From assembly GCA_018664825.1 (NCBI GenBank), contig JABJNO010000017.1, positions 1-50,742 on the forward strand: a DNA stretch of 50,742 nt. Reading direction: 5' to 3'. The notes beneath the pieces are model-generated. The model was not told the DNA's origin. It saw only the letters and a list, made by a program, of their open reading frames with translations, and did no database searches. Positions 28,639-37,213 of this stretch are shown here, one piece after another. This DNA is from Candidatus Parcubacteria bacterium (lineage in GTDB: Bacteria > Patescibacteriota > Patescibacteriia > UBA1558 > GWA2-36-10). Position 1 is the first letter of the stretch; each line of letters opens with the position of its first letter. Both the position numbers and the translations under genes were made by a program.

Positions 28639-30519
28639 TTATTTTAGAGTCGCTTTGATACGACGGATTCCAGCTGAGCTGGATTGTTCTTTTTTGATTT
28701 TAAAGGTCCCAAGTTCATTGGTGTTTTCGACGTGTGGTCCGCCACAAATTTCTTTGGAAAATTTACCAATTTTGTAGACTTTTACCATCTCACCATATTT
28801 TTTATCAAATAGACCGATAGCGCCTTGTTCTTTGGCTTGGGCTACTGACATTTCTTCGAATACTATTTCTAGTCCAGCCTGGATTTGTTGATTGACTAGC
28901 TCCTCTACTTTTTGTTTTTCTTCATCGGTCAGCTTGTCTGGATGGACAAAGTCAAAGCGTAATCTTTTTTCATTTATATTACTACCTTTTTGTTCAACGT
29001 GGTCTCCTAGAATATCTCGCAAAGCCTGATGGAGTAAGTGAGTAGCGGTATGATATTTGCGAGACATCTCGCCATCATCAGCTAGTCCACCCTTGAACAT
29101 ACCAGCAGAAGCAGTTCGAGAAAGTTCTTGGTGTTTTTTAAACTCAGCTTCAAATTTTTCTTCAATGTTATCTTCAATTTTTACAGTATGAAACTCATGA
29201 GATTCAAAAAACTTTATTTCTTCTAAGCTCATTTCTAAAGGAAATCCGTAAGTTGAAAATATAATGAATAAATCTTTTGCTGTAGCTTTGATAATTTTAC
29301 TTCTAACATCAGTTCTTTTTTGTTCAGCTAGTTCTTTAATTGGATCAACTTCAAATCCTAAAACTAATCTATGGATTTTTTTTCGGCCTTTTTGCATAGT
29401 AAGGCGAAATTTTTCTTCCTCTTTACTTAGCTCGGAATTTATAAATTCTTTATTCTTTATTAATTCTGGATAATCTGATTTGTATAAGTTTATTATTGTT
29501 TCGGCTAGACTTAGACAAAAATTTTCTTTTATACCTAACAAAAATGCAAAACGGATAGCTCGCCTGATCAAACGACGTAAAACATAGTTTTGATCTTTGT
29601 TGCCAGGAGCAATACCCTTGGCGTCGCCCATGATAAATATTGCACTACGGATATGGTCAGCTATAATTCTCATTGAACGAACATCTTCATCCCAACAATC
29701 AGGTTTTTCATCAAAGCCGAGGTCGCCTTTTTCAAATTTATATTTTTTGCCAGACAAATCCTCTATTTTTTTGATGATTGGTTGCCAGAGCTCGGTCAGG
29801 TAGTTGTCATCAAAGCCATTGAGTACTGCTAGAGTTCTCTCGAATCCCATGCCTGTGTCGATATTTTTTTGTTTGAGTGGCTCGTATTTGCCGTCAGCTG
29901 TTTTGTTGTACTGCATGATGACGTCATTCCAAAGTTCTACCCATCTTGTGTCTTCTGGATCAAAATTGTTTGGCGCAGACTCAGTACCTGTCCAATAAAA
30001 TATTTCTGTATCCGGACCACAGGGTCCAGTTTGTCCAGCTGGACCCCACCAATTATCTTTTTTACCCAAATAGCCAATTTTATTTACACCAATTTTTTTC
30101 CAAATTTCAGCACTTTCTTCATCTCTAGGTACGTTTTGATCTCCAGCGAATACTGTTACAGCTAATTTTTCTTTTTTTATACCCAAAACTTCCGTCAAAA
30201 ATTCCCAAGAAAATTCTATGGTTTCTTTTTTGAAATAATCACCCAAAGACCAATTGCCGAGCATCTCAAAAAAAGTATGATGAGTAGCATCACCTACTTC
30301 ATCAATATCTCCAGTACGGATACATTTTTGGACACTGGTAAGACGCTTGCCTTCTGGGTGTTTTTCACCCATCAGGTATGGTACTAGTGGATGCATACCC
30401 GCAGTAGTAAATAGTACAGTCGGATCATTGTCGGGAATCAGAGAAGCAGAACCAATGATTTTATGGTTTTTTGATTCAAAATATTTTAAGAAAGTTTTCC
30501 TCAATTCCGGAGCTGTCAT
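28639..30519 (-). CDS. alaS: Alanine--tRNA ligase, short form without the C-terminal (DHHA1/C-Ala) region
   Basis: FTTAGMHPLVPYLMGEKHPEGKRLTSVQKCIRTGDIDEVGD; editing motifs HTATHLLHQALR and EICGGPHVENT; ends at 626 aa. Confidence 0.95.
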   Translation of the reverse strand: MTAPELRKTFLKYFESKNHKIIGSASLIPDNDPTVLFTTAGMHPLVPYLMGEKHPEGKRLTSVQKCIRTGDIDEVGDATHHTFFEMLGNWSLGDYFKKETIEFSWEFLTEVLGIKKEKLAVTVFAGDQNVPRDEESAEIWKKIGVNKIGYLGKKDNWWGPAGQTGPCGPDTEIFYWTGTESAPNNFDPEDTRWVELWNDVIMQYNKTADGKYEPLKQKNIDTGMGFERTLAVLNGFDDNYLTELWQPIIKKIEDLSGKKYKFEKGDLGFDEKPDCWDEDVRSMRIIADHIRSAIFIMGDAKGIAPGNKDQNYVLRRLIRRAIRFAFLLGIKENFCLSLAETIINLYKSDYPELIKNKEFINSELSKEEEKFRLTMQKGRKKIHRLVLGFEVDPIKELAEQKRTDVRSKIIKATAKDLFIIFSTYGFPLEMSLEEIKFFESHEFHTVKIEDNIEEKFEAEFKKHQELSRTASAGMFKGGLADDGEMSRKYHTATHLLHQALRDILGDHVEQKGSNINEKRLRFDFVHPDKLTDEEKQKVEELVNQQIQAGLEIVFEEMSVAQAKEQGAIGLFDKKYGEMVKVYKIGKFSKEICGGPHVENTNELGTFKIKKEQSSSAGIRRIKATLK

Positions 30520-33545: not shown

Positions 33546-33830
33546 ATGGAAAAAGCTGGTGACGGCAATGTCGTTGATCTCCTGATGGAAAATCTCACAG
33601 CCATAGATGATGAGCGCAAAGAAAACTGCATTCATTGTGGTAATGAGTGGTATGCCATTCACCATAAAGATGGCGTATGCCATAGTTGTCAACAAAAAGG
33701 CCTACCTGGCCGTACTGCACTCGAACGTCGAGAGAACATCCAAGCCAAAGTTGCCTGGGCAGTCGGTATCGGTGCCCTACTCTTCCTTTTGGGTATGAGC
33801 CTGGCTGGCAAGTTGCCCGCAATTGGATAA
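33546..33830 (+). CDS. Small zinc-ribbon protein with C-terminal TM
   Basis: SD aaaaaggag; CIHCG...CHSCQQKG; C-terminal hydrophobic segment. Confidence 0.65.
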   Translation: MEKAGDGNVVDLLMENLTAIDDERKENCIHCGNEWYAIHHKDGVCHSCQQKGLPGRTALERRENIQAKVAWAVGIGALLFLLGMSLAGKLPAIG

Positions 33831-35794: not shown

Positions 35795-35826
35795 ACGGGT
35801 GCGAATTTATTCGCACCCGTTTTTTT
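35795..35826 (+). terminator. Intrinsic terminator
   Basis: ACGGGTGCGAAtttaTTCGCACCCGTttttttt. Confidence 0.9.
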
Positions 35827-36064
35827 ATCCAGAAATTTCCTGGTAGTCTTCAGGATCTTGATCCCAGCTAGGAACAAAGATCCAGAGAAGTATGTAGATG
35901 CCGAGACCGACACCATAGTAGCAGAGGGCGGCGGCCCACAGGAGCCTGATAATCCAGGTTTTGACTCCTAACTTGTAGGCCAATCCAGCGGCTACGCCAC
36001 CAATCCAGTGATCGTCCTCTATCTTACGGAAACTTCTTGATTTTAGTTTATCTATTTCACTCAT
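35825..36064 (-). CDS. PspC domain-containing protein
   Basis: SFRKIEDDHWIGGVAAGLAYKLGVKTWIIRLLWAAALCYYGVGLGIYILLWIFVPSW; SD aggaggt; minus promoter TTGACA-17-TAAGAT (36120-36148). Confidence 0.88.
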   Translation of the reverse strand: MSEIDKLKSRSFRKIEDDHWIGGVAAGLAYKLGVKTWIIRLLWAAALCYYGVGLGIYILLWIFVPSWDQDPEDYQEISG

Positions 36065-36740: not shown

Positions 36741-36769
36741 TTGACATAATAATAAAATTATCTTAATAT
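36741..36769 (+). promoter_or_regulatory. Promoter of the L1-stalk-like RNA
   Basis: TTGACA-17-TAATAT. Confidence 0.85.
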
Positions 36770-36775
36770 CAGCTT

Positions 36776-37006
36776 AGTTCATTGATAAGGTGCTCGGAAA
36801 AACAAAAGCCGTTTGGGGTGTAATGGTTCGAATCCTAACATTTGGGCGGAGATCTATATCTTTTGTTGTAGAATACGTGGGAGACTTTGACGTTGTGACG
36901 CTAGTCACAAAATAGTCGTCAGTGAAATACCACTGCTTAAGATCTCTAGATCAAAACCTCCGAGCACCCACTTACATCAAGCCTCTAGAATATCTAGAGG
37001 CTTTTT
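36776..37006 (+). ncRNA. Putative structured ncRNA containing a 23S rRNA L1-stalk-like (H75-H78) domain
   Basis: Closing stem GGTGCTCGG(36789-36797)/CCGAGCACC(36960-36968); L1-stalk-like ttgTAGAATAcGTGGGAGACTTTGAcgTTGTGACgctaGTCACAAaatAGTCGTCAGTGAAATACCACtg; terminator GCCTCTAGAatatCTAGAGGCttttta. Confidence 0.85.
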
Positions 37007-37015
37007 ATTTTAAAA

Positions 37016-37044
37016 TAAAAAGACACACTATGACAGTGTGTCTT
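37016..37044 (-). terminator. Intrinsic terminator
   Basis: minus: AAGACACACTgtcatAGTGTGTCTTttta. Confidence 0.8.
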
Positions 37045-37213
37045 GTTTTGGATCTTCTCGGAGACACTCGGGTACATGATTCATCACTCGATGAAATTCT
37101 TCGTCAATTTCTTGGCGGATTACTTTGGGGTCTAGTGAAAGTCCTTTCTCGGTTCTGATTGCAATGGCACGAGCCAAAAAAACATCACGGATAATCCAAA
37201 CTGGACCTTGCAT
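37028..37213 (-). CDS. Small hypothetical protein (61 aa)
   Basis: SD aaaggag; own terminator. Confidence 0.6.
   Translation of the reverse strand: MQGPVWIIRDVFLARAIAIRTEKGLSLDPKVIRQEIDEEFHRVMNHVPECLREDPKQDTLS

Follow-up and report, generated by a model that had tools for sequence, protein, structure and literature searches.

A candidate class of free-standing RNA associated with Patescibacteria that joins a tRNA-like elbow to an L1-stalk module

Stalk-like RNA occurs outside the ribosome in the leaders of ribosomal-protein mRNAs, where mimics of the L1 stalk of 23S ribosomal RNA (rRNA) serve the autoregulation of L1. In the ribosome itself, the G2112-A2169 pair of the stalk stacks on the G19-C56 pair of the transfer RNA (tRNA) elbow (PMC5309774). 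Three RNA classes, 23S rRNA, RNase P and the T-boxes, are known to grip tRNA elbows by interdigitated T-loops, and a review predicted that more would be found (PMC4810234). The window analyzed here, a stretch of 50,742 nt from a Candidatus Parcubacteria bacterium (assembly GCA_018664825.1, contig JABJNO010000017.1), carries on its forward strand a unit of about 180 nt in which a tRNA-like elbow is followed by an L1-stalk module; a closing stem lies on the outside, a promoter-like site upstream and an intrinsic terminator downstream (Table 1). This unit almost certainly belongs to a real, structured and free-standing RNA class associated with Patescibacteria. The stalk had been noticed in an earlier reading of the sequence, hereafter the original prediction, which knew of no described free-standing L1-stalk RNA; likewise, we found none in Rfam 15 or in the literature searched. 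The elbow, which is key to how the RNA may work, had been missed. All the results are based on assembled metagenome sequences, and the E-values of the models are rough.

The L1-stalk module of the window is recognized by the Rfam model of bacterial large subunit (LSU) rRNA, RF02541, with 40.7 bits and an E-value of 4.3e-11 when 361 bases are searched against 4227 families, which bears out the stalk mimicry originally proposed. A match of just 86 nt keeps the score under the RF02541 gathering threshold of 50, and therefore the default scan of the whole window, in which no Rfam family attains its gathering score, came out empty; the LSU model does reach this score with the stalk of certain other family members. 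With only these 86 nt matched, the window holds nothing like the near-complete LSU sequence of a 23S gene, and it contains no rRNA or tRNA genes, in agreement with the claim that the unit lies outside any rRNA operon. In E. coli numbering, GTGG/CCAC corresponds to helix H77 and the hairpin arm, originally called H78-like, to H78; the flanking arms, in contrast, occupy the position of H76 and not that of H75. H77, H78 and the double T-loop residues are all present. Among 26 members, the double T-loop residues A2114, G2115, U2118, A2119, U2167, A2171 and A2173 are invariant, and G2168 is kept in 24.

Directly upstream of the stalk lies the elbow: a short acceptor-like stem (P2) is followed by a variable region and then by a T-arm, which has a UUCRA loop and is continuous with this stem. 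Across members the T-loop residues agree with the tRNA consensus. P2 is poorly defined in the window copy, and the T-stem there is weak, with just two canonical pairs beside the loop where several other members have five. The gap between the T-arm and the stalk measures 44-48 nt in 11 of 13 members, distant lineages included (42 nt in G116), and it is near-constant in nearly all members overall, yet the stems that lie in between share no sequence. The complete order in the 5' half is the closing stem P1, an A-rich linker ending in AAC, P2, a D-like region of about 20-60 nt that nearly always contains GG, the T-arm, P2', GG and a junction; the 3' half continues with the basal stem at the H76 position, strand 1 of the double T-loop, H77, H78, strand 2, H77', the second strand of the basal stem, a linker, P1' and the terminator.

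As a unit, the window copy is more stable than expected by chance (fold z-score -5.4; none of 200 shuffles equally stable). The promoter-like site and the intrinsic terminator described in the original prediction are both present, and so is the closing stem, with a length of 10 bp instead of 9. No convincing open reading frame (ORF) crosses the unit, also as claimed; the sole ORF, at 36922-37158, begins in the stalk and runs through the terminator. From its promoter and terminator, transcription of the unit as a free-standing non-coding RNA gene is predicted. Directly behind this terminator, a second terminator-like inverted repeat (37020-37044) is T-rich on the minus strand; it probably ends the minus-strand ORF 37028-37213 or works in both directions.

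The search of related genomes that had been suggested with the original prediction recovered 28 members of about 180-250 nt, none of them within a 23S gene. One is found in a Candidatus Parcubacteria genome of the window's own family (G010), in a unit 74% identical over the core that has its own closing stem, promoter-like site and terminator. A model made from these two sequences (R1) scored them at 216 and 190 bits, versus about 45-69 bits for 23S stalks, and its weaker matches, those not in 23S, pointed to four additional members that belong to different genera or families. These matched in the stalk part only (model positions 71-157, 80-152 and 91-145), and a T-arm lies upstream in all four; since they were found via the stalk alone and the T-arm was seen afterwards, the T-arm is an independent finding. 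With a model of six members (R2), and then one of 27 (R3), 14 carriers were identified among 381 genomes of the window's class, which we take to be probably ABY1, judging from the names Falkowbacteria and Kerfeldbacteria. A pattern combining T-arm and stalk, run over 84,980 GTDB species genomes, gave 18 matches, all of them stand-alone with no LSU gene around; four are in genomes already known, leaving 14 new ones for a total set of 28. Given that the pattern demands parts of the T-arm and of the stalk, conservation there in the 14 new members is by construction, whereas neither the stems nor those double T-loop positions that the pattern leaves out are constrained by it. By name, 15 of the 18 are Patescibacteria (CPR2, Wolfebacteria, Kaiserbacteria, Woykebacteria, Falkowbacteria, Kerfeldbacteria, Parcubacteria and Paceibacterota), two are 'bacterium' and one is 'Woesearchaeota'. 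The last (L144:845-954), whose assembly bears the title of an archaeon, Candidatus Woesearchaeota, may reflect a misbinned Patescibacteria contig or a transfer. A terminator was found in 20 of the 28 members by the kind of scan that detected the one in the window. The stand-alone stalks are no nearer to each other (0.62) than to 23S stalks (0.63), and therefore a single and a repeated origin cannot be told apart.

The helices of the family covary. Over 27 members, 84.2% of the cells are paired versus 63.5% in shuffles, and 188 cells are changed on both sides versus 66; the covariation score is 0.615 versus 0.221 when shuffled and 0.10-0.22 for slid structures, where kinship among the sequences can inflate the shuffle control and not the slid control. 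For P1 and for the basal stem, the native pairings beat the swapped ones in 10000 of 10000 permutations. P2 is weak when searched in a wide region (216 of 10000 permutations); within tighter limits, which were picked after this first result had been seen, the figure is 0 of 20000 for the 20 members with a clear P1.

What the sequence comparison shows, then, is the family with its helices and near-constant spacing, the residues retained in T-loop and double T-loop, and the usual promoter and terminator. That one RNA holds both partners of a known contact, at a nearly constant distance, suggests that they dock, either in cis or between two copies. We tentatively propose a new class of non-coding RNA in which a double T-loop of the L1-stalk type docks on a tRNA-like elbow, and which acts on translation in trans independently of uL1; the docking mechanism, taken by itself, we would put slightly short of an even chance. 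P1 closes two modules, the elbow and a complete L1 stalk, and the 3' side of the T-arm leads straight into P2. The double T-loop would stack on the elbow, either its own or that of another copy, in the way the L1 stalk of 23S stacks on the E-site tRNA, so that a compact RNA would rebuild this contact away from the ribosome. It would then most likely act on translation in trans as a mimic of, or a competitor for, a partner of the L1 stalk and the tRNA elbow, which is the weakest step.

Several observations weigh against this proposal. Docking in cis is suggested by spacing and residue conservation only, and of the residues that stack on the elbow in the ribosome, G2112 is retained by only 19 of the 26 members and A2169 likewise by only 19. 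A D-loop partner for the T-loop, in a pair like G19-C56 of tRNA, is putative, with GG present in 19 of the 20 D-like regions inspected. In G012 (L069:5172-5289) a long insertion with an extra hairpin region widens the gap between elbow and stalk to 82 nt. The distribution within the class is patchy (14 of 381 genomes), and therefore the RNA is accessory, not core. Finally, the gene context of the carriers includes no conserved neighbour that hints at a function.

Table 1. Features of the stand-alone RNA unit in the window
Feature	Position	Strand	Basis
Promoter-like site, TTGACA-17-TAATAT	36741..36769	+	Sequence; comparable sites 5' of most other members
P1 closing stem, 5' strand, GGTGCTCGGA	36789..36798	+	Pairing kept with differing sequences, permutation 0/10000
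AAAAC linker, P2 5' strand and D-like region containing GG	36799..36824	+	P2 across members, permutation 0/20000
T-arm GG-TTCGAAT-CC, tRNA T-loop consensus	36825..36835	+	Sequence comparison
Basal stem at H76 position, 5' strand, GAGATCT	36849..36855	+	Family basal stem covaries, permutation 0/10000
Full match to bacterial LSU rRNA, L1 stalk	36858..36943	+	Rfam RF02541 model positions 2128-2213
Double T-loop strand 1, GTAGAATAC	36868..36876	+	E. coli 2112-2120
H77 5' strand, GTGG	36877..36880	+	Partner 36930-36933
H78 arm, GAC ... TTGTGAC-GCTA-GTCACAA ... GTC	36883..36917	+	Paired in 96-100% of cells, with double changes frequent
Double T-loop strand 2, TGAAATACC, continuing into H77 3' strand CCAC	36923..36933	+	E. 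coli 2167-2175
Basal stem at H76 position, 3' strand, AGATCTC	36940..36946	+	Best flanking pairing, partner 36849-36855
P1 closing stem, 3' strand, TCCGAGCACC	36959..36968	+	Pairs with 36789-36798, 10 bp
Intrinsic terminator, 11-bp stem and T-rich tail	36979..37010	+	Terminator scan, 36979-37003

Other explanations have been considered in the light of what the carriers encode. A role as decoy of uL1, or as a regulator acting through it in trans, which the original prediction had put forward as a sponge or autoregulator, would fit the presence in the RNA of the uL1-binding region of 23S; moreover rplA, whose presence was to be checked, is encoded by the window genome (G000:C7), as it is by each of the 14 carriers within the class. 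However, rplA (PF00687) was undetected in 9 of the 14 GTDB carriers (9 of 28 overall), Wolfebacteria and Kaiserbacteria among them, with the proviso that some assemblies may be incomplete, and the stalk is about equally well kept there; loss of rplA in Paceibacteria has already been published (PMC12641178). uL1 is therefore unlikely as a general partner, and as a function of the class this role is improbable. In the 23S genes L145, L146, L153 and L154 (G088, G101, G118 and G036) a short stub with a UUCG cap takes the place of H78, and the double T-loop strands remain. Loss of H78 has been described before (PMC12641178); the exact stub was observed in these genes. The 23S stalk matches of G084, G299, G103 and G203 are likewise short or low-scoring. 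The stubs in the carriers G088 and G101 would favour a split 23S rRNA, one piece of which, encoded in trans, supplies the missing stalk, but the 23S stalk match is full-length in at least nine carriers (G068, G170, G384, G387, G389, G390, G394, G395 and G396), and the stalk of the RNA, being closed by stems that belong to it, offers no free ends for joining 23S, so that this explanation is largely refuted and very improbable. With both kinds of 23S stalk among the carriers, the RNA does not simply replace a missing stalk, and compensation for a shortened one was rejected; the assembly of the window genome itself (1.16 Mb, 25 contigs) contains no 23S gene. That the stalk part is clearly 23S-derived or 23S-like could also speak for a decayed, functionless 23S fragment, a case named in the original prediction among those that would undo it. 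Against it stand the 28 members, their usual promoters and terminators, a conserved architecture absent from 23S, strong covariation and the distribution, by which it was rejected as hardly credible at all.

Two further explanations concern the ribosome and tRNA as partners. In one of them the RNA binds the ribosome, for instance in hibernation or in assembly of the 50S subunit, with the elbow entering the E site and the stalk module mimicking or displacing the 23S stalk. Both modules are indeed E-site components, and in Patescibacteria the set of ribosome biogenesis factors is reduced and H78 shows class-specific changes (PMC12641178); nonetheless, full and shortened 23S stalks among the carriers show no simple link to the stalk state, and no module for 16S or mRNA was recognized, which leaves this possibility unlikely. 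The other supposes a free-standing, tRNA-binding sensor comparable to the elbow clamp of T-boxes or RNase P: its double T-loop captures tRNA elbows, while the built-in elbow competes with them from within and closes the RNA at a low supply of tRNA. The device is that of the three known elbow-binding RNAs, with its residues conserved, but neither a specifier loop nor pairing to the acceptor end was identified, and the RNA ends at its own terminator with nothing regulated downstream; a sensor of this kind is unlikely. The same terminator and the lack of a T-box match from Rfam in the window set the RNA apart from a T-box, and the unit has no match to RNase P RNA; the family member on L142 has a distinct RNase P gene in its vicinity. 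A substitute for transfer-messenger RNA (tmRNA) was rejected, given that a separate tmRNA scores above the cut-off in 25 of the 28 carriers (with weak matches in the other three) and that RF00023 has no match in the window. Across these genomes, the RNA is independent of rplA, of the 23S stalk state and of tmRNA.

The neighbours of the RNA in most carriers are varied, unrelated housekeeping genes. A mobile element was rejected on the basis of this context and because the viral collection has no match to the pattern; the matches in phages and plasmids do not reach beyond the stalk part and are either 23S or sequences without annotation. Partial synteny exists within the family of the window, where zinc-ribbon-like (CIHCG...CHSCQQKGLPGRT) and PspC-like genes lie near the RNA both in the window (33546-33830 and 35825-36064) and in G010 (L002, 1787-2044 and 2577-2792). 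In three carriers alaS, judged from translated starts, is near the RNA: 6 kb away in the window (28639-30519, a short copy of 626 aa) and adjoining it in G012 (L069) and G389 (L207), possibly by chance. In two Wolfebacteria (L206 and L208, of G387 and G392) the RNA keeps its position between uvrA and uvrB, also judged from translated starts.

If docking on the elbow holds, this would be a fourth kind of RNA that uses interdigitated T-loops for the elbow and the first with both partners encoded together. It would offer a candidate minimal system for recognition between elbow and L1 stalk, present even in genomes without detected uL1, and possibly a translation-related RNA in Patescibacteria, where the reduced ribosome biogenesis is an open question (PMC12641178). 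Unlike the stalk mimics of ribosomal-protein leaders, the RNA is not part of an mRNA leader, lies beside no ribosomal-protein operon in most carriers, and occurs in genomes without detected rplA. Like the tRNA-like domain of tmRNA, it has a stem followed by a D-like region and a T-arm; in contrast, P2 runs on into the rest of the RNA and leaves no CCA end free, and no tag frame was identified. With RNase P and stem I of the T-boxes it has in common an interdigitated double T-loop, the elbow-binding kind of device; here, however, the double T-loop is of the L1-stalk type, the elbow is in the same molecule, and no catalytic domain, specifier or antiterminator was seen. The closest likeness is to the 23S L1 stalk (H76-H77-H78, RF02541 about 2128-2213), which it resembles in the sequence, order and spacing of the double T-loop, H77 and H78. 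It departs from that stalk in being a gene of its own, usually with promoter and terminator, in being closed by P1, and in having H76 and H77 that often differ in sequence and still pair (GCGA/TCGC in G372, TCAG/CTGA in G012), with an elbow preceding the stalk.
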